Below, piece by piece: positions 1,263 to 16,307 of a stretch of DNA of 64,000 nucleotides (position 1 is its first letter; the number at the start of each line of letters is the position of its first letter). A program made the position numbers and the translations under genes. Source of the DNA: Duganella zoogloeoides (GTDB lineage: Bacteria; Pseudomonadota; Gammaproteobacteria; Burkholderiales; Burkholderiaceae_D); contig NZ_CP140152.1 of NCBI RefSeq assembly GCF_034479515.1, positions 6,014,001 to 6,078,000 on the forward strand, in the 5' to 3' direction. Under the pieces are notes generated by a model. That model was not told the origin of the DNA, did no database searches, and was given only the letters and a program-made list of their open reading frames with translations.

Positions 1263-4200
1263 TCAATCCGGTTGAAGGGCGAGCCATGCCCCGGCCTGGT
1301 CGAGCGTGGCTTGCAGTTCGGCGCGCACGGCCTGGTAGCCGGCGGCGATCGCCGCGCTGTCTTCCTTGACGATCGCGTCTTCCGCGTCCATGGTGGCCTG
1401 GATCAGGCGCCGCGCACCGAGCACCCCCACCGCGCCGCGCAGGCCGTGGAACTGGCGGGCGGCATCGCGCAGGCGCCCCTCGGCGATGGCAGTGCCGGCT
1501 TCGTCGGCCGGCGCCATGCCCCCCTCGATGGCGCCGCGCACCATCTTGAGCATCACCGCCCTGCCCTTGGCGTCCTTGCCCATCACCCGCATCAGCTTGT
1601 CCACGTTGAAGATGTCGGCTGCGCTGCCGGGACCAGAGCTGGGTACCGGTCCCGTTGCCGGCACCGGTGTCGCCACCAGCCTGACGGTGGCGGGAGGCCG
1701 CGCCGGTGGCGGCAGCGCAGCAGGAGCAGGCACCGGCGCGGCTGCCGCTTTTTTAGGCAGGTGACGCAGCAGCACTGCCAGCATTTCCTCGACCTCGATC
1801 GGTTTCGGGATGAAGTCGGTCACGCCCACCGTTACGCTGCGCTCGCGCTCCGCTTCGAGCACGCCGGCCGTCATTGCCACGATGGGCAAGGTGAGCTTGA
1901 GTTCCTGGCGCAGGATGCGGGTGGCGGTGAAGCCGTCCATGACCGGCATCTGCATGTCCATCAGTACCGCGTCATATTCTCCCTGGCGCGTGCTCATGCG
2001 GTCCACCGCCTGCTGGCCGTTATCCACCACGTCCACCGTGGCTCCGGCCAGTTCGAGCATGCCGCAGGCCACCGCCTGGTTGGCCACGTTGTCTTCCACC
2101 AGCAGCAGGCGGCAACCGGCCAGCATCCCCTCGATGCCCTGGCCGGCCGCCATTTGCAGCCCGGTCTCGCCGTTGGTCACCAGCGCCTCGTGCAGGGCGT
2201 CGAACAGGTTGGAGCTGGTGATGGGTTTCACGAGTACCACGTCCACCTCGGGCGCGGCGGAAATTTCCTCCAGGCGGTCGCGGGCGAAGGCGTTGACCAT
2301 CACCACCACCGGCTGGCCGCCCTCGGGCGCGGCGGCGCGGATGCCCTTGGCCGTGGCCAGCCCATCCATGCCGGGCATGTGCCAGTCGGCCAGCACCACG
2401 TCGTACGGCTGCTGCGCATCGAGGCTGGCGCGGAACAGGGCCAGCGCCTCGGTGCCGGAAGCCACTTCGTCGGCTTGCCAGCCCCAGGCGCGGATCATCT
2501 GGGCGATCAGGGTGCGGCTGGTGTCGCTGTCGTCGGCCACCAGCATGCGCAGCTCGCCAATCGCAGGGCGGCGCCGCTCCTCTCCCTTCTCGGGCAGCAC
2601 TTCGAACGGCAACTCGAACCAGAAGCGCGAGCCGTGGCCCTCGCTGCTGCTGACCGCGATTTCGCCGCCCATCAGCTCGATCAGGCGGCGCGTGATCGCC
2701 AGGCCCAGGCCGGTGCCGCCGAAGCGCCGGGTGATGCTCTGGTCGCCCTGCGAAAACGCGTGGAACAGCTGGCCCAGCTGCTGTTCGGTCATGCCCATGC
2801 CGGTATCGCGCACTTCGAAATGCAGCCGCGCCTGCGAAGCGGACGATAATTCCGCCAGGCCGATCGACACCACCACCTCGCCAGCGGCGGTGAACTTGAT
2901 GGCGTTGCCGGCCAGGTTGACCAGGATTTGCTGCAGCCGCAGGGCGTCGCCGCGCAAATTCTTCGGCACGGCCGCATCGACCGCGATGGCCAGCTCGATT
3001 TCCTTGTCGCCGGCATTCATGGTCATGGTGGTGGCCAGCGAATTCATGGTGTCGTCGAGGTTGAACTCGACCGGTGACAGCGCCATGTGGCGCGCCTCGA
3101 TCTTGGAGTAGTCGAGCACGTCGTTGAGGATGCCCAGCAGCGACTGGCCCGACACCCGCACCATGTTCAGGTACTTGCGCTGCTGCGGCGTCAGCTGGGT
3201 GTTGCCGAGCAAATAGACCATGCCCAGCACCGCGTTCATCGGGGTGCGGATCTCGTGGCTCATGTTGGCGACGAATTCGCTCTTGGCCCGGTTGGCGGCC
3301 TCGGCGCGGTCGCGCTCGCGTTCGAGTTCCTCGGTGCGCGCGGCCGCTTCCACCCGCAGCCGGTGCGGCTCGGTCACGTCGGAAATCACGGCCAGCACCT
3401 TGGTGCCCTGGTCGGTGCGCACCGCGCTCAGGTTGATTTCGACCGGGAATTCGGTGCCGTCCTGGCGCAGTCCGTGCAGCACGGCGCCGCGTCCCATGCG
3501 CACCGCCTCGGCGCTGAGGCGCTCGGCAAAAAAATGTTCGCGGTGGCTGGTGTGGCGCTCGCGCAAGGGCGCCGGCACCAGCATCTCGATCGCGCGGCCC
3601 AGCAACTGGTCGCGCGGGTAGCCGAAGCAGCGTTCGCACTCGCGGTTGGCGGTTTCGATGCGGCCATCCATGCCCACCACCAGGATGGCGTTGGGCGCGT
3701 ACTCGAGCACGCTTTGCAGGCGCGTGTCGGCGGCTTGCCGTTCGCGCATCAGGTTGTTGAACGCGGTGGTCAGCTGGCCGACCTCGTCGTTGGCGTGGAC
3801 CGGCAGCGGCACAAACTCGGCGGTGGAGCCACGCAGCGCGCCGATGGCGTTGCGCAGCTTGACCAGGGGCGCCAGCAGGCGCGCGGCCAGGCCGCCCACC
3901 AGCAGCGCCGTCAGCAGCGAGGCCAGGCCGCCCCACAGCAGCAGGCGCGCAAGCACGCCGTCGAACGCCTCGTAGGCTTCGGCGGCCGGCAGCGACGTGC
4001 CCAGCACCCAGTCCACCGATTTCAGCGTCTTGTAGCTGTTGAGCACTTCATGGCCCTCGGTATCGACGCTATCGACCGTGCCCTCGAAGCCGTCGGCCAG
4101 TGCCAGCGTGGTGGCGCCATTGAGCTGGCCGCCGCGCGGCTGCAGCAGGCGGTTGGGGTCCGGGTGCAGCACGTACACCGGCTTGGGACCGCGTGTTAGG

Positions 4201-4802
4201 GCAAAATAATAGCCGCTGGCGCCCACGGTGGCGTGGCGCAGGTGGCCGAGAAAGTTGTTCTTGTACAGCCGCAGCACGCCGGACAGGATGCACACCACCT
4301 CGCCGCGCGCGTCGAGCACGGGCGCGATCACCTGCACGAGCGGCTCGCGTCCGTACTTGCCCAGCACCGGCTCGGTAATCATCGGCTTGCGCGTGTACAT
4401 CACCTGCTTGAAATAGGCGCGGTCGGACACGTCCATGCCCACCCGGCCCGGCACCGCCGGCAGGTCGGCGATGGCCTTGCCGTCGGCGCTATACACCACC
4501 AGCTCGTCGAACAGCGACAGGATGGCGCGGTCCTGGTAGTAGGCGCGCAGGCGTTCGGGCGAGTTGCCGAGCTCGAGCGGCTGCTTGCGGGCGGAAAAGG
4601 CGACGATCTCGAGCAGCGCGGTCAGCTTGTCGTCGAGTTCCTCGGCGGTGCGGGCCACCAGCGCGGTTTGCTGGGTAAACAGCACCCGGGAGAAATCGTG
4701 CTTGACTCGTTGCATCTGAACCACGGTCACCAGGGCGATCATCAGGATCGAGGTGATACTGGTTGCCAATGCAACTTTCGCCTTGATCCCAAGTGGTTTC
4801 AT
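1263..4802 (-). CDS. Hybrid sensor histidine kinase (Cache-HAMP-PAS-HisKA-HATPase-REC-REC-Hpt)
   Basis: This is a 1179-residue inner-membrane phosphorelay kinase. A first membrane segment (about residues 10-28) and a second (about 290-312) bracket a roughly 260-residue periplasmic sensor of the double-Cache type. HAMP follows, then a PAS domain (about 355-480) and HisKA with phospho-acceptor His516 in SHEIRTPMNAVL. The HATPase domain has its N box near LVNLAGNAIKF. Two receiver domains carry Asp806 (ADWHMPG) and Asp949 (MDMQMP), and a C-terminal Hpt domain carries His1119 (HGLRG). All relay residues are present. No separate output regulator lies beside it, so its target is unknown. It is divergent from the second large kinase at 5022. 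Confidence 0.93.
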   Translation of the reverse strand: MKPLGIKAKVALATSITSILMIALVTVVQMQRVKHDFSRVLFTQQTALVARTAEELDDKLTALLEIVAFSARKQPLELGNSPERLRAYYQDRAILSLFDELVVYSADGKAIADLPAVPGRVGMDVSDRAYFKQVMYTRKPMITEPVLGKYGREPLVQVIAPVLDARGEVVCILSGVLRLYKNNFLGHLRHATVGASGYYFALTRGPKPVYVLHPDPNRLLQPRGGQLNGATTLALADGFEGTVDSVDTEGHEVLNSYKTLKSVDWVLGTSLPAAEAYEAFDGVLARLLLWGGLASLLTALLVGGLAARLLAPLVKLRNAIGALRGSTAEFVPLPVHANDEVGQLTTAFNNLMRERQAADTRLQSVLEYAPNAILVVGMDGRIETANRECERCFGYPRDQLLGRAIEMLVPAPLRERHTSHREHFFAERLSAEAVRMGRGAVLHGLRQDGTEFPVEINLSAVRTDQGTKVLAVISDVTEPHRLRVEAAARTEELERERDRAEAANRAKSEFVANMSHEIRTPMNAVLGMVYLLGNTQLTPQQRKYLNMVRVSGQSLLGILNDVLDYSKIEARHMALSPVEFNLDDTMNSLATTMTMNAGDKEIELAIAVDAAVPKNLRGDALRLQQILVNLAGNAIKFTAAGEVVVSIGLAELSSASQARLHFEVRDTGMGMTEQQLGQLFHAFSQGDQSITRRFGGTGLGLAITRRLIELMGGEIAVSSSEGHGSRFWFELPFEVLPEKGEERRRPAIGELRMLVADDSDTSRTLIAQMIRAWGWQADEVASGTEALALFRASLDAQQPYDVVLADWHMPGMDGLATAKGIRAAAPEGGQPVVVMVNAFARDRLEEISAAPEVDVVLVKPITSSNLFDALHEALVTNGETGLQMAAGQGIEGMLAGCRLLLVEDNVANQAVACGMLELAGATVDVVDNGQQAVDRMSTRQGEYDAVLMDMQMPVMDGFTATRILRQELKLTLPIVAMTAGVLEAERERSVTVGVTDFIPKPIEVEEMLAVLLRHLPKKAAAAPVPAPAALPPPARPPATVRLVATPVPATGPVPSSGPGSAADIFNVDKLMRVMGKDAKGRAVMLKMVRGAIEGGMAPADEAGTAIAEGRLRDAARQFHGLRGAVGVLGARRLIQATMDAEDAIVKEDSAAIAAGYQAVRAELQATLDQAGAWLALQPD

Positions 4803-5021: not shown

Positions 5022-9980
<4,959 letters not shown>

Positions 9981-10058: not shown

Positions 10059-10331
10059 ATGATTAAACAGACTTTCGATCAGCTCAGCGCCATGCTCGCC
10101 AAACTGGCCACCGACGATGGTTTCCGCGACCGCATGCAAAGCGACCCGGTACGCGCCCTGAGCGCACTCGGCATCGAACTCGATCCGGCCAAGGTGCCGG
10201 CCGTGCGCAGCCTGCCGTCCAAGCAGGTGAGCGCCGCCGACCATGCCACGTTCGAAAGCAAGGAAGCCGGCGAACGGACCATGGTGCTGTTCATGCTCTC
10301 GGGCGTGTCGGCATCGCGCCTGGCCACCTGA
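10059..10331 (+). CDS. NHLP-like leader peptide, putative modified (RiPP) precursor
   Basis: This 90-residue peptide has an N-terminal half with the nitrile-hydratase-like leader pattern: a DDGFRDRM helix, then DPVRALSALGIEL and a Pro break at about residue 44. The C-terminal half is the presumed core. It has no Cys but several Ser and Thr residues, and ends in a hydrophobic stretch (about 75-90). The ATG at 10059 is chosen because GAGGGAG lies about 7 bases before it; the in-frame TTG at 10044 overlaps that site. A SagB-like dehydrogenase ends 29 bp away on the opposite strand. From memory, NCBI families of putative modified peptides paired with a peptide-maturation dehydrogenase look like this. 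The product and its modification are unknown. Confidence 0.75.
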   Translation: MIKQTFDQLSAMLAKLATDDGFRDRMQSDPVRALSALGIELDPAKVPAVRSLPSKQVSAADHATFESKEAGERTMVLFMLSGVSASRLAT

Positions 10332-10359
10332 TCGCCTGATCACTTGACCGGCTAACCGG

Positions 10360-11556
10360 CTATCCGGCCACCTGGCCGAGGCCGGTTTCGCCGTAGCGCA
10401 GTTCCACCATCTCGCGCGCGCCGGTCGCAGCCACGCCGCAGCCGCACACGGCAATCACCGCGTGGCGCAGATGGTCCAGCCCCAGCATGGTTTCGATATC
10501 GATGTCGTTGATGGCGGCGGTGATAAACGCCGGCAAGCCCGCTTCCGACGCCAGCAGATAAAACGTCTGCGACAGGTGGCCGGCATCGAGCGACATCGCG
10601 CGGTACGCCTTCTGGTGGTTGCGGTATTTCCAGAACGAGCGCTCCACCCGTCCCACCATTACCACCTGCATCGCCGCGCCGGCCAGCCAGTACTGGTCCG
10701 CCACCATTTGCAGCGCCAGCGCCGCCGCTTCGTCCTGCGTGGTTGCGCGCAGCGGCACCAGCGTGTTGTCGAGCGGATGGTAGTGGTACAAGCCCGGCGC
10801 CAGGCCGTCCACCCGTTGCACCAGCACGAACGCTTCGACCGGATGCAGGCCGCCGCCCGACGGGCTGGTCTTTTTCAGGACGTTGGCGTGCGGGCCGATG
10901 TGGCGCAGTTCCTGGGCGCCGAACGTGCGTTGCAGCAGGCGCGCCGCCACCGCCAGCGGCAGGCTGGCGCTGGTATCGTAGTTGCGGCCCGTGTAGCGGC
11001 GCAGCAGTACCTCGTCGAGCATGCCGGCGGGCGCCGGCAGCGGCACCGCCGCGCCGATGCTGGCCACCTGCTGCACCGGCGGCGGCGGATTGCCGTGGCG
11101 TTCGAGCAGTTCCTCGAAGCTGGGCGCCTCCATGCCGGTGTCGCTGCGCACGTCGTGCCAGCGCGAGAACGTGTGCGCCAGCGCCGCCAGCGGCCGCCAG
11201 TGCAGCGTGCGCAAGGTGTCGTCGCGCTCGCGCAGGGCGTCCTGCGCGGTGGCCTGCTCTGGCTGCTGGCCCCGGGCCTCGGCCAGCAGCAGGCCGTGCG
11301 CGAGCAGCCGGTCCACGACCGCCGCGCCATGGCGTTCGGCGACCTCATCGCGCGCGGTCCAGACCGATGAACCGACTGCGGCCAGTGCCGCCAGGTCGGC
11401 CGCATCGACCTCGATCTCGCGGTCCAGGTGCGGCGCCAGCGCCAGCCAGCGGGTGCTGGCCGCCAGGGTGCTGGTGCCGGCAAACAGCGCGGCCCAGTCG
11501 ATGTCCAGTTCTTCGCGGGGTTCGAGGTACAACACGGCGCAGCGGCGTAGATTCAT
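10360..11556 (-). CDS. SagB-like peptide maturation dehydrogenase (nitroreductase fold)
   Basis: This 398-residue protein has a C-terminal nitroreductase-fold, FMN-dependent dehydrogenase domain (about 180-395). Signature stretches are YTGRNYDTS, TSPSGGGLHPVEAFV (flavin site) and YHYHPLDN. SagB enzymes oxidise azoline rings to azoles in modified peptides. The first 170 residues are a separate region; about residues 50-95 could be a winged-helix, leader-binding module, but that is inference. A clear AGGAGAG site lies 9-10 bases before the ATG. The gene converges on the leader-peptide gene at 10059-10331. No YcaO cyclodehydratase, protease or exporter is adjacent, which is unusual for a SagB system. 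Confidence 0.8.
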   Translation of the reverse strand: MNLRRCAVLYLEPREELDIDWAALFAGTSTLAASTRWLALAPHLDREIEVDAADLAALAAVGSSVWTARDEVAERHGAAVVDRLLAHGLLLAEARGQQPEQATAQDALRERDDTLRTLHWRPLAALAHTFSRWHDVRSDTGMEAPSFEELLERHGNPPPPVQQVASIGAAVPLPAPAGMLDEVLLRRYTGRNYDTSASLPLAVAARLLQRTFGAQELRHIGPHANVLKKTSPSGGGLHPVEAFVLVQRVDGLAPGLYHYHPLDNTLVPLRATTQDEAAALALQMVADQYWLAGAAMQVVMVGRVERSFWKYRNHQKAYRAMSLDAGHLSQTFYLLASEAGLPAFITAAINDIDIETMLGLDHLRHAVIAVCGCGVAATGAREMVELRYGETGLGQVAG

Positions 11557-11760: not shown

Positions 11761-12519
11761 ATGATCAAAGACCTGCCATCGCTGGTGCTGCCCGGCGCCA
11801 CAATCGACATCCTCAAAGCCAGCTGCGCCACGTGCAGCATGCACCAGCTGTGTTTGCCCATGGGACTGGGCAACGAAGACATGGACCGGCTCGACCAGAT
11901 CATCGGCCGCCGTCGCAAGGTCGCGCGCGGCAATACCTTGTTCCGCATTGGCGATTCGTTCCAGAACCTGTACGCGATCCGCCTCGGCCACTTCAAGACC
12001 TACCAGGTCAACCGCGAAGGCGCGGAGCAGATCACCGGCTTCCAGATGGCCGGCGAGCTGCTCGGCATGGACGCCATCAGCACCGACCTGCACCATTGCA
12101 CGGCGGTGGCGCTGGAAGACAGCGAGGTGTGCGAAATTCCGTTCGCCACCTTGCAGCAACTGCTGGCCGAAATGCCGACCCTGCTGCGCCACTTCCACCG
12201 CATGATGAGCCAGGAAATCACGCGCGAGCAAAGCGTGATGCTCTTGCTCGGCAATATGCAGGCCACCCAGCGCTTCGCCGCCTTCCTGGTCAACCTGTCG
12301 TCGCGCTACGAAGCGCGCGGCTACTCGCCCAACGCCTTCCAGCTGCGCATGTCGCGCGAAGAGATCGGCAACTACCTGGGCCTGACCATCGAAAGCATCA
12401 GCCGCCTGCTGTCGAAGTTCAAGAAAGAAGGACTGGTCCGGGTGAGCAACCGCGAAATCGAACTGCTCAAGCCGCTGACACTCAAGGCGATTACGGCCGG
12501 TACCGAAACCTGCGGTTAA
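11761..12519 (+). CDS. fnr: FNR/ANR-type oxygen-sensing transcriptional regulator
   Basis: This 252-residue Crp/Fnr family activator has an N-terminal cysteine cluster (SCATCSMHQLC, about residues 21-30) and a further Cys in the central helix region. Together these supply the four ligands for an oxygen-labile [4Fe-4S] cluster. A cyclic-nucleotide-binding-like beta roll follows, then a C-terminal helix-turn-helix with the FNR recognition helix near ESISRLLSKF, which reads TTGAT-N4-ATCAA. It lies just downstream of the cco operon, as fnr often does in betaproteobacteria. Three FNR-type boxes elsewhere in the window (17799, 40605, 51112) are likely targets. It probably activates microaerobic genes when oxygen falls. 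Confidence 0.93.
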   Translation: MIKDLPSLVLPGATIDILKASCATCSMHQLCLPMGLGNEDMDRLDQIIGRRRKVARGNTLFRIGDSFQNLYAIRLGHFKTYQVNREGAEQITGFQMAGELLGMDAISTDLHHCTAVALEDSEVCEIPFATLQQLLAEMPTLLRHFHRMMSQEITREQSVMLLLGNMQATQRFAAFLVNLSSRYEARGYSPNAFQLRMSREEIGNYLGLTIESISRLLSKFKKEGLVRVSNREIELLKPLTLKAITAGTETCG

Positions 12520-13149: not shown

Positions 13150-14544
13150 CTAGCGCGGCACGATGAAGACCGCAGTTTCTTTCACATGCAGCGCCGGATC
13201 ATCCACCGATGTCAGCGCCACTTCGATCTTGTTCGAGCCCTTGTGTGCGGCGCCGTGCGCGGTGCGCAGGCGGATCGGCACGCCGCGCGTTTCGGTCGCC
13301 TCCAACTGCACGGTAGCGGGCGTGACCAGGGCCAGCGTGTCGATGCCGGACACGCTGATGCGATACGTGTGGGCGCGCTCGGTCGTGTTCATGATCTGCA
13401 GCCGATAGACGTTTTCGATCATGCCGTCTTCGACCTCGCGACCCATGGCGCCACGGTCGCGGATCACGTCCATTTTCAGTGGCACGCGCAGGTACAGGGC
13501 GGCGCCGGCGCCGGCCACGATCAGGCACAGCACGGCGGTGTAGATGCGCACCCGGGGACGCCAGGTGCGGCGGCGGATTTCGCTGGGCGTTAAATGCTCG
13601 TCGAGCGCGCGCTCGGTGGCGTAGCGGATCAGGCCGCGCGGCGCATCGATCTTGTCCATCACGCCGTTGCAGGCATCCACGCACGCGGCGCAGCCGATGC
13701 ACTCGTATTGCAGGCCGTTGCGAATGTCGATGCCGGTGGGGCACACCTGCACGCACATCGAGCAGTCGATGCAGGCGCCGCCGGTGTTGGCTGTTTGCTT
13801 GTGGCGTGGAACCAGTGGACCACGCGGTTCGCCGCGCCTGGCATCGTAGGTGATGATCAGGGTGTCGCGGTCGAACATCGAGCTCTGGAAGCGGGCGTAC
13901 GGGCACATGTACTTGCACACCTGCTCGCGCATCCAGCCGGCATTGCCGTAGGTGGCAAAGGCGTAGAACAGCACCCAGAACCATTCCCACGGGCCGAAGT
14001 CGAAGGTCTGCACCTCGACCATCAGCTCGCGGATCGGCGTGAAGTAGCCAACAAAGGTAAAGCCGGTCCACAGGGCCACCGCGCCCCAGGCCAGGTGCTT
14101 GGCGGTTTTTTTACCGAGCTTGCCGGCGGACCAGGGCTGGCGGTCGAGCAGCATGCGCGCGCTGCGCTTGCCTTCGATGCGGCGTTCGATCCACAGGAAA
14201 ATTTCGGTATAAACAGTTTGCGGGCAGGTGAAGCCGCACCAGACGCGCCCGGCCACGGCGGTGGCCAGGAACAGCAAATACGCGCTGATGATCAGCAGTA
14301 CCGCCAGGTAAATGAAATCCTGAGGCCACAAGACCATGCCGAAGATGTAGAACTTGCGCGTGGTCAGGTCGAACAGCAAGGCCTGGCGGTCGTTCCAGAG
14401 CAGCCACGGGGTGCCGTAAAACGCCAGCTGCGTCAGCCACACGAACAGCCAGCGCAGGCGGGCGTAGCGGCCCGAGGTTTCGCGCGGGTAGATTTCCTCG
14501 CGCGCCGCATACATCTTGATGACTTGTGTCTCGGGGGCACTCAT
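13150..14544 (-). CDS. ccoG: Cytochrome c oxidase accessory protein CcoG (FixG/RdxA)
   Basis: This 464-residue polytopic membrane protein has several helices in the first 210 residues, including the FTCPQ motif. Two ferredoxin-type [4Fe-4S] motifs (CIDCSMCVQVCP and CIGCAACVDACN) follow, with a C-terminal Ig-like periplasmic domain. CcoG is a cupric reductase that supplies Cu(I) for cbb3 oxidase maturation. Its start overlaps the ccoP stop by 4 bp (14541-14544), so the two are translationally coupled. It is part of the FNR-box-led cco operon. Confidence 0.95.
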   Translation of the reverse strand: MSAPETQVIKMYAAREEIYPRETSGRYARLRWLFVWLTQLAFYGTPWLLWNDRQALLFDLTTRKFYIFGMVLWPQDFIYLAVLLIISAYLLFLATAVAGRVWCGFTCPQTVYTEIFLWIERRIEGKRSARMLLDRQPWSAGKLGKKTAKHLAWGAVALWTGFTFVGYFTPIRELMVEVQTFDFGPWEWFWVLFYAFATYGNAGWMREQVCKYMCPYARFQSSMFDRDTLIITYDARRGEPRGPLVPRHKQTANTGGACIDCSMCVQVCPTGIDIRNGLQYECIGCAACVDACNGVMDKIDAPRGLIRYATERALDEHLTPSEIRRRTWRPRVRIYTAVLCLIVAGAGAALYLRVPLKMDVIRDRGAMGREVEDGMIENVYRLQIMNTTERAHTYRISVSGIDTLALVTPATVQLEATETRGVPIRLRTAHGAAHKGSNKIEVALTSVDDPALHVKETAVFIVPR

Positions 14545-15503
14545 TTTGCTGGTTCCGGTTCCGGATTGGCAGCCGGCGCTGGCGCCGGCTGCGTCACATC
14601 ATTGGACAAGCTCCAGATGTAGGCAGCCAGCACGTGCACCTTGGCGTCGCCGAGGAAGTCGCCAAACGCCGGCATGGTGGCAGCGCGGCCGTTGCGGATG
14701 GTTTCCATGATGGTGTCGGCGCTGCCGCCGAACAGCCAGACCTTGTCGGTCAGGTTCGGTGCGCCGAGCGCGGCGTTGCCCTTGGCGTCGGCGCCGTGGC
14801 AGGCCATGCAGGCGCCGAATTTCGCTTTGCCGAACACCGCCTTGATCGGATCGGATGTCGAACCGGACAGGCTCAGCACGTAATGGGCGACGTTCTCGAT
14901 ATCCTTCTCGCTGCCCACGGCCGCGCCCATCGGCGGCATCACGCCGGTACGCCCGTGCAGGATGGTCTGCTTGATGATCTCGGGCGTGCCGCCGAACAGC
15001 CAGTCCTTGTCGGCCAAGTTTGGAAAGCCCTTGTTGCCGCGCGCGTCGGACCCGTGGCACTGGGCGCAATAGGTGAGGAACAGCCGCTCGCCGATGGCGC
15101 GCGCCTTCGGATCGGCCGCCACCGCTTTCAAATCCTGCTGCTGGTACTGGGCGAACAGCGGACCATATTCCGCCTCGGCCTGTTTCAGTTCGGTCTGGTA
15201 GTTGCCGGTGGAGCTCCAGCCCAGCTTGCCTGCATAACTGCCCAGGCCCGGGTACAGCACCAGGTACACCAGCGCGAAGACGATGGTGATGTAGAACAGC
15301 CACATCCACCAGCGCGGCATCGGCGTGTTCAGCTCGGTCAAATCCTGGTCCCAGATGTGGCCGGTCGTATCGACATTGATGTCGCTGCGCTTGCCCACCC
15401 GCGCCTTCGATTGCGCCCACAGCAGGATGCCGCAACCGATGATGCCGAGCAGAGTGATGGCGGCGATGTAGTAATCCCAGAAGCCGCTGGTAAAGTCAGC
15501 CAT
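14541..15503 (-). CDS. ccoP: cbb3 cytochrome c oxidase subunit III (dihaem CcoP)
   Basis: This 320-residue protein has two N-terminal membrane helices (about 8-30 and 65-86) and two periplasmic cytochrome c domains with haem motifs CAQCH and CMACH. It passes electrons from soluble cytochrome c to CcoO and the catalytic subunit. The C-terminus is Pro/Ala/Glu-rich. Its start overlaps ccoQ by 8 bp and its stop overlaps ccoG by 4 bp. Having two N-terminal helices rather than one is common in betaproteobacteria. Confidence 0.96.
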   Translation of the reverse strand: MADFTSGFWDYYIAAITLLGIIGCGILLWAQSKARVGKRSDINVDTTGHIWDQDLTELNTPMPRWWMWLFYITIVFALVYLVLYPGLGSYAGKLGWSSTGNYQTELKQAEAEYGPLFAQYQQQDLKAVAADPKARAIGERLFLTYCAQCHGSDARGNKGFPNLADKDWLFGGTPEIIKQTILHGRTGVMPPMGAAVGSEKDIENVAHYVLSLSGSTSDPIKAVFGKAKFGACMACHGADAKGNAALGAPNLTDKVWLFGGSADTIMETIRNGRAATMPAFGDFLGDAKVHVLAAYIWSLSNDVTQPAPAPAANPEPEPAK

Positions 15504-15678
15504 GATGCACCTCGCGCTCGCTTTTCAGCGGCTCGTCGGCAAACGGGGCAAGTGCTGCCTGGGTAAAATCGGTTTCCTTGTGGTGGATATACGCCCACCA
15601 CACGATGCCGATGAACGTGACAAACGACACCACCGTCATCACGCTGCTGGCCTGGTCAAACAGGTTCTCGATAGCCAT
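15496..15678 (-). CDS. ccoQ: cbb3 oxidase subunit CcoQ
   Basis: This 60-residue single-pass membrane protein has one helix at about residues 12-32, followed by a charged tail containing HHKETDF and PLKSE. CcoQ stabilises the cbb3 complex. It begins 1 bp after the ccoO stop and overlaps ccoP by 8 bp. Confidence 0.92.
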   Translation of the reverse strand: MAIENLFDQASSVMTVVSFVTFIGIVWWAYIHHKETDFTQAALAPFADEPLKSEREVHHG

Positions 15679-15679
15679 G

Positions 15680-16294
15680 TCAGTTCCTTGCTTTGATTAA
15701 CGTGCCCAGGCCTTGCAGATAGGCGATCAGGGCGTCTTCCTCGGTCTTGTCCTTCAGTTCTTCCGGCGCGGCGGCGATCTCGGCATCGGTGTACGGGTCG
15801 CCCAGGCGCTGCAGCGCGCGCAGCTTCGGCACCACGTCCTGCGGCACCAGTTTGGTCTTGGCCAGCCACGGGTAGTTGGGCATATTCGATTCCGGCACCA
15901 CGTCGCGCGGGTTGGCCAGGTGGGTGCGGTGCCATTCGTCGCTGTAGCGGCCGCCTACGCGCGCCAGATCGGGGCCGGTGCGCTTGGAGCCCCACTGGAA
16001 CGGCCGGTCATAGACGAACTCGCCGGCAACGGAATAGTGGCCGTAGCGCTCGGTCTCGGCGCGCAGCGGCCGCACCATCTGCGAGTGGCAGTTGTAGCAG
16101 CCTTCGCGTACATAGATGTCGCGGCCGGTCAGCCGCAGCGGGCTGTACGGTTTAAGGCCGGCCACCGGTTCGGTGGTGGACTTCTGGAAGAACAGCGGCA
16201 CGATTTCCACGGCGCCGCCTACGCTGATCACCAGGGTGACCAGGGCGATCAGCAGCCAGGGATTTTTTTCGATCCATTCATGTGAGAATTTCAT
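15680..16294 (-). CDS. ccoO: cbb3 cytochrome c oxidase subunit II (monohaem CcoO)
   Basis: This 204-residue protein has one N-terminal membrane anchor (about 11-33) and one haem c site in [13 protein letters not shown], with Met ligands further on. It carries electrons from CcoP to CcoN. The ATG at 16294 is preferred because GGAG lies 5 bases upstream; a GTG at 16300 would overlap that site. It lies 13 bp after ccoN in the same operon. Confidence 0.95.
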
Positions 16295-16307
16295 GGGCAC
16301 TCCGGGT

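Follow-up and report, generated by a model that had tools for sequence, protein, structure and literature searches.

A precursor peptide, a SagB-type dehydrogenase and a hybrid histidine kinase linked in Duganella zoogloeoides: a candidate modified-peptide signalling module

Related peptide-modification systems

The three genes discussed here encode a precursor peptide, a SagB-type dehydrogenase and a hybrid histidine kinase, and lie side by side in Duganella zoogloeoides. The stretch analysed, hereafter the window, comprises 64,000 nucleotides (6.014-6.078 Mb) of a 6.32-Mb genome assembled as one contig (NZ_CP140152.1); positions given below are counted from its first nucleotide. By model name, the peptide and the enzyme belong to a pair that is already known without a product, as NCBIfam groups TIGR04509, TIGR04510 and TIGR04511 as a "putative peptide modification system". 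Both proteins score far above the cut-offs of their models (TIGR04509 and TIGR04511). An earlier reading of the DNA made without database searches (the sequence-only reading) had pointed to NCBI paired families of this kind with no named product. The locus differs from that system in its third component, since a Reg_prop hybrid kinase is found here where TIGR04510 sits.

A chemical precedent is available as well. According to a preprint (PMC12636437), the nitroreductase domain of PflD, encoded in a YcaO-free cluster, converts the Phe of LGTAAIFDQ in a nitrile hydratase leader peptide (NHLP)-type precursor to Z-dehydrophenylalanine, as determined by nuclear magnetic resonance. Its authors suggest that different dehydro residues could arise from other nitroreductases that work without YcaO, and they give Pseudomonas Os17 as the source of the pos cluster. 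A genetic study of this bacterium found a lower antibiotic activity after loss of the peptide gene Os1348 and a weaker effect on Bacillus subtilis when the SagB-type gene Os1351 was deleted (PMC7726476).

The pfl and pos clusters (peptides PflA/PosA, the MNIO-nitroreductases PflD/PosD, and Os1348-Os1351) share with the window locus an Os1348-family leader, a nitroreductase-fold enzyme without YcaO and a Phe in the core stretch, and the PflA cluster likewise has no protease. They differ in that their enzyme carries an MNIO fusion, whereas an RRE-like domain is predicted here (RRE, recognition element of ribosomally synthesized and post-translationally modified peptides, RiPPs), PflD being likened to our enzyme by description and not by sequence. 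In addition, the HEXXH and GNAT partners of pfl/pos were not seen among the scanned neighbours here, their cores carry Gln repeats and ARMD where the core here carries FxLSG, and the module here is linked to signal transducers.

In contrast to the azoline oxidases SagB, McbC and ThcOx, the present enzyme has an RN insertion after WKY, its peptide is Cys-free, and no RiPP-type YcaO was found in the genome. The cyclodipeptide oxidase AlbAB uses free cyclodipeptides as substrates, assembles into filaments with AlbB and has no leader peptide; unlike the leader-peptide enzyme here, it was considered as a chemical analogue only. The sequence-only reading had raised the possibility that the dehydrogenase acts on the peptide directly with new chemistry. 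Direct action is upheld below; novelty shrinks to the details, because YcaO-free nitroreductase chemistry on such a peptide has already been reported (PMC12636437; earlier genetic study PMC7726476). A literature search that reached few subscription papers yielded nothing on a two-gene version with an RRE-fused enzyme, on its link to Reg_prop kinases or on an exchange of transducers between lineages.

The peptide-enzyme pair

The precursor peptide (90 amino acids; 10059..10331, forward strand) starts with the ATG at 10059, upstream of which a GAGGGAG stretch was noted by eye, and its stop codon is at 10329-10331. It is over the cut-off of TIGR04509 (74.9 bits; cut-off 34) and of the Os1348 family model NF038399 (46.0 bits; cut-off 40), which places it in the NHLP clan; the generic NHLP model TIGR03793 gives 13.3 bits, below its cut-off of 50.9, and the match to PDB 6lk7 is weak (E 0.0062). 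The NHLP-like leader and Cys-free core ascribed to it earlier are both borne out, as no Cys occurs in any of the 90 residues.

The enzyme gene (10360..11556, reverse strand) encodes 398 amino acids that score 545.5 bits with the peptide-maturation model TIGR04511 (cut-off 240) and 117.9 bits with the SagB domain model TIGR03605 (cut-off 78.4). The latter score, together with membership of the FMN (flavin mononucleotide) nitroreductase family, agrees with its earlier description as a SagB-like, FMN-type dehydrogenase. A Pfam scan found a nitroreductase domain alone, at residues 185-374 (10435..11004, reverse strand), and no MNIO fusion. Hence, the extra N-terminal region put at about 170 residues comes to about 180. 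In the AlphaFold2 model (mean predicted local distance difference test score, pLDDT, 92), residues 1-97 (11266..11556, reverse strand) are predicted to fold as a PqqD-like winged helix similar to leader-binding RREs, and for this reason the enzyme itself probably binds the peptide. The sequence WKYRNH (residues 309-314; 10615..10632, reverse strand) is invariant across 54 aligned enzyme sequences and aligns, with a two-residue insertion, to WKY--H of the cyanobactin oxidase ThcOx (5lq4/8pz5). The score of 545 bits and the predicted RRE speak against a generic nitroreductase unlinked to the peptide.

The pairing is conserved in other genomes, here counted as raw genome or locus tallies in which relatedness is ignored. 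In a family sample of 245 genomes, the enzyme was over cut-off in 17 and the peptide in the identical 17, one of which (G166) has two of each. A search of named genomes with the enzyme alignment gave 186 matching places, of which the best 80 were analysed as loci. The peptide was detected at 78 of these 80, at 74 initially and at four more after the length filter was lifted; the other two are L116, which ends 183 bp past the enzyme match, and L121. Peptide and enzyme genes are on opposite strands in all 78 loci with a detected peptide. The genes converge in the window, as had been pointed out, but convergence is no conserved trait: among the Oxalobacteraceae loci in which peptide, enzyme and kinase were all called (45 of 49, window included), 26 are convergent and 19 divergent.

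The core of the peptide points to a possible target. Phe78 (codon 10290..10292, forward strand), in the stretch TMVLFMLSG, is the predicted dehydrophenylalanine site, a proposal that builds on motif conservation and the analogy with PflD. The motif [PLIY]F[FLM][LM] occurs within the final 26 residues of all 47 Oxalobacteraceae peptides and the stricter F[FLM][LM](SG or GA) in 45 of them (exceptions L120 and L134); the Leu/Met two positions past the core Phe is equally constant, and Cys occurs within these 26 residues in 1/47. In 38 Xanthomonadales-type peptides, the final 25 residues contain Phe in 23 and lack it in 15, and contain Cys in 17, so the target must differ in part of the family. 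Constraint on the core also varies between groups of Oxalobacteraceae loci, as judged by the ratio of nonsynonymous to synonymous polymorphism (pN/pS). For the leader, middle and C-terminal thirds, this ratio is 0.19, 0.47 and 0.15 in group 2 (16 peptides), 0.07, 0.23 and 0.14 in group 3 (5 peptides) and 0.39, 0.58 and 0.65 in group 1 (15 peptides), and PFLLSG is invariant in group 1 despite its C-terminal value. Five Xanthomonadales-type loci (L136, L138, L143, L144 and L161) encode two to three distinct precursors with related leaders and diverged cores, and two enzyme genes are present in each of L136 and L139.

SagB enzymes normally oxidise rings formed by a YcaO cyclodehydratase. The absence of an adjacent YcaO, noted earlier, extends to the whole window, where no match was found. 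The genome has two YcaO proteins, at 1.36 and 3.77 Mb. Both score as 30S ribosomal protein S12 methylthiotransferase accessory proteins (NF040716, cut-off 700; 879.5 bits and 816.2 bits), and one of them is the form fused to OsmC. As both are of this type, no RiPP-type YcaO cyclodehydratase was found in the one-contig genome, and the suggestion of a distant cyclase is not supported. Of the two options offered by the sequence-only reading, direct action of the dehydrogenase on the peptide is the better one.

The linked kinase and its replacements

The locus had been regarded as minimal. This view is not sustained, since a hybrid histidine kinase gene (1652 amino acids; 5022..9980, forward strand; Pfam scan) lies upstream on the same strand and stops 78 bp short of the peptide gene. 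The protein comprises Reg_prop propeller repeats, Y_Y_Y, HisKA, HATPase_c, two receiver domains and Hpt (Pfam). Hydropathy marks residues 1-19 and 858-876 as hydrophobic segments, and the part between them would be a periplasmic sensor.

When the sensor part (window 5109-7541) was used as the query, 23 listed matches exceeded 600 bits, a line set after the results were seen, and all fell within the 17 of 245 genomes that carry the pair; the best match elsewhere reached 550 bits. In 15 of the 17 genomes, the kinase shares a contig with the peptide or enzyme and is within about 6 kb of it; in G120 and G188 they are on separate contigs. There are 23 kinase matches versus 18 enzymes, and five kinase matches have no adjacent enzyme. 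One of these solo Reg_prop hybrid kinases is in the D. zoogloeoides genome itself, at 2.74 Mb (L172, 2,734,000-2,753,900; 7299-12557). It is about 66% identical to the kinases of group-2 modules and adjoins terminal-oxidase genes, the site of a complete module in related Duganella, and no peptide or enzyme match was found beside it. Thus, in the 245-genome sample, a locus may carry the kinase by itself, but no pair-free genome has a match above 600 bits.

The 45 three-gene Oxalobacteraceae loci include contig-cut kinases (L084, L096) and one variant (L104, 6451-9615), a single case in which a GGDEF output replaces the kinase and the Reg_prop propeller sensor is kept. The gene order is enzyme-peptide-kinase in 26, peptide-enzyme-kinase in 18 and kinase-peptide-enzyme in one. 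The remaining loci have a Reg_prop start at a contig end (L100), a kinase fragment (L121), no kinase (L093) or are cut (L116). Several named genomes carry a pair of modules, with one kinase per module (e.g., D. sacchari, L089/L115, and D. radicis, L087/L117). Moreover, kinase and enzyme distances agree closely over 42 loci (Mantel r 0.953; 0/2000 permutations), which is expected if the genes travel together, but could be due to shared descent. We consider it likely that the kinase belongs to the peptide-enzyme system. In 15 of the 18 peptide-enzyme-kinase loci, the gene calls give enzyme and kinase the same 25-bp tail-to-tail overlap (L087, L089-L092, L094-L099, L102, L103, L120 and L135). In the window, a second large hybrid-kinase-like gene (1263-4802, reverse strand) directly precedes that of the module kinase, with which it shares about 41% identity across the kinase region.

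At Xanthomonadales-type loci, the kinase is replaced by a TIGR04510-type cyclase together with a cNMP-binding/GGDEF protein (cNMP, cyclic nucleoside monophosphate); the former is present in 31 and the latter in 28 of 32 loci. For the three of these cyclases that were scanned, TIGR04510 gives 706 to 854 bits (cut-off 400). The best score in the D. zoogloeoides genome is 23.5 bits, and a search of the 245 family genomes at 1e-30, with at most three candidates scored per listed genome, gave none; both positive controls, two other enzyme-positive genomes of the class sample, were recovered. Hydropathy detects one segment near 230-272 in each of the three cyclases and none above threshold in L104. 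The sensor parts of the cyclases would then face the periplasm.

Proposed action, rival explanations and neighbouring genes

We propose that the NHLP-type leader docks on the RRE-like domain predicted at the N-terminus of the enzyme. The nitroreductase/SagB domain, with no YcaO partner, would then remove two hydrogens from the core; the alpha,beta-dehydro residue so formed would most likely be a dehydrophenylalanine in place of Phe78, as PflD and the conserved core Phe suggest. Peptide and enzyme would serve, or be governed by, the membrane transducer to which they are genetically linked: a Reg_prop hybrid kinase here and, at other loci, a Reg_prop sensor with GGDEF output or a cyclase of the TIGR04510 type plus its cNMP-binding/GGDEF partner. 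The favoured role of the transducer would be to read the released peptide as a signal. We give this three-gene explanation as a whole a probability of roughly 0.55. Its parts differ in strength. Direct action of the enzyme on the peptide is highly probable, and dehydrophenylalanine is somewhat favoured as the product residue by analogy with PflD.

The evidence suggests that a modified peptide belongs to a signalling module whose transducers are exchangeable; the kinase may sense something else. That it senses the modified product is doubtful. Still more tentative is the full modular proposal, in which a single RRE-fused flavin desaturase produces a dehydro-amino-acid ribosomal peptide that serves a membrane sensor as its dedicated ligand, in a previously undescribed system that keeps the pair and swaps the transducer, be it a phosphorelay, a diguanylate cyclase or a nucleotide cyclase with a cNMP-binding/GGDEF protein. 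Reg_prop kinases of other bacteria are known as glycan sensors, and the group-1 Duganella kinases lie beside sugar-degradation genes. The neighbours common to group-1 loci are genes for a tail-specific protease (16 loci), an NHL-repeat protein (16), DUF4861 (14), GH88 (13) and GH16 (11), one member of each family having been scanned; the last three are the sugar-degradation genes. Such neighbours argue against a peptide-sensing kinase and slightly lowered our estimates both for sensing of the product and for the modular-signalling proposal. No exporter or protease common to the loci was seen among the neighbours, not all unlabelled ones being annotated, which makes export the weakest point of the scheme; the genome has one protein with a C39-peptidase domain, located elsewhere.

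The strongest rival holds that the peptide is an antimicrobial RiPP, i.e., a competition factor, and that the kinase or cyclase senses glycans or stress and switches the genes on. The sugar-degradation genes next to group-1 kinases fit this idea, which has an appreciable though minority chance of being correct, and so does the fall in antibiotic activity of Pseudomonas Os17 on loss of Os1348 or Os1351 (PMC7726476). It would have to account for the restriction of sensor matches above 600 bits to genomes with the pair, and for the finding that no shared exporter or immunity gene was seen across the Oxalobacteraceae groups, where some unlabelled genes lack annotation. A direct oxidase could also yield another product, for example by desaturating the conserved Leu or Met or by another two-electron oxidation. 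The constancy of Leu/Met, followed by SG or GA in 45/47, and the 15/38 Xanthomonadales-type peptides without Phe in the final 25 residues are compatible with this alternative; it is unlikely, given that Phe is the sole aromatic at the site in 47/47 Oxalobacteraceae cores and that the core Phe stretch resembles the modified-Phe stretch of PflA, LGTAAIFDQ (PMC12636437).

The constrained cores of groups 2 and 3 (C-terminal pN/pS 0.15 and 0.14) and the terminal-oxidase genes and regulators that flank the module in two groups could instead reflect a peptide-derived redox or enzyme cofactor used inside the cell, like pyrroloquinoline quinone (PQQ) or mycofactocin. This is improbable, because other groups have different flanks, group 1 reaches 0.65 at the C-terminus, and five Xanthomonadales-type loci carry two to three different peptides each. 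Least credible of all is a classical thiazole/oxazole (TOMM) pathway with its cyclodehydratase encoded elsewhere: its support lies in the score with the SagB model and in the WKY sequence shared with an azoline oxidase, but the peptide has no Cys and both genomic YcaO proteins score as S12 accessory proteins (879.5 and 816.2 bits).

In soil and water bacteria, a peptide, an enzyme predicted to oxidize it directly and a membrane sensor thus form a unit, which suggests that a chemically modified peptide is connected with cell signalling. An uncharacterized NCBI family pair gains a testable reaction, an enzyme architecture and a target residue. The pathway may need one peptide and one enzyme only; an enzyme that needs no partner could be a simple tool for placing dehydro-amino acids in peptides. 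The tie of the pair to transducers whose domains differ by lineage suggests a signalling role for some Gram-negative RiPPs.

Beyond peptide, enzyme and kinase, none of the most frequent neighbour families keeps a constant position from one Oxalobacteraceae group to the next. They are group-restricted, except for a methyl-accepting chemotaxis protein present at varying places in 21 loci. The group-1 neighbours lie within 10 kb of the enzyme (L086-L099, L102 and L135). Next to the enzyme gene in the window (11761-12519 and 13150-16300) are genes for a Crp/Fnr-type regulator and a FixG-type protein and apparent cbb3-oxidase genes. Group-2 modules of Duganella and Rugamonas adjoin the COX1 and COX2 operon of a different terminal oxidase, along with a paired kinase and response regulator, and the two respiratory neighbourhoods are unrelated to each other. 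Many Xanthomonadales-type modules (L141, L144, L146, L148 and others) are preceded by genes for malate synthase (scanned in L148) and an apparent isocitrate lyase, located upstream of the cNMP-binding/GGDEF gene.
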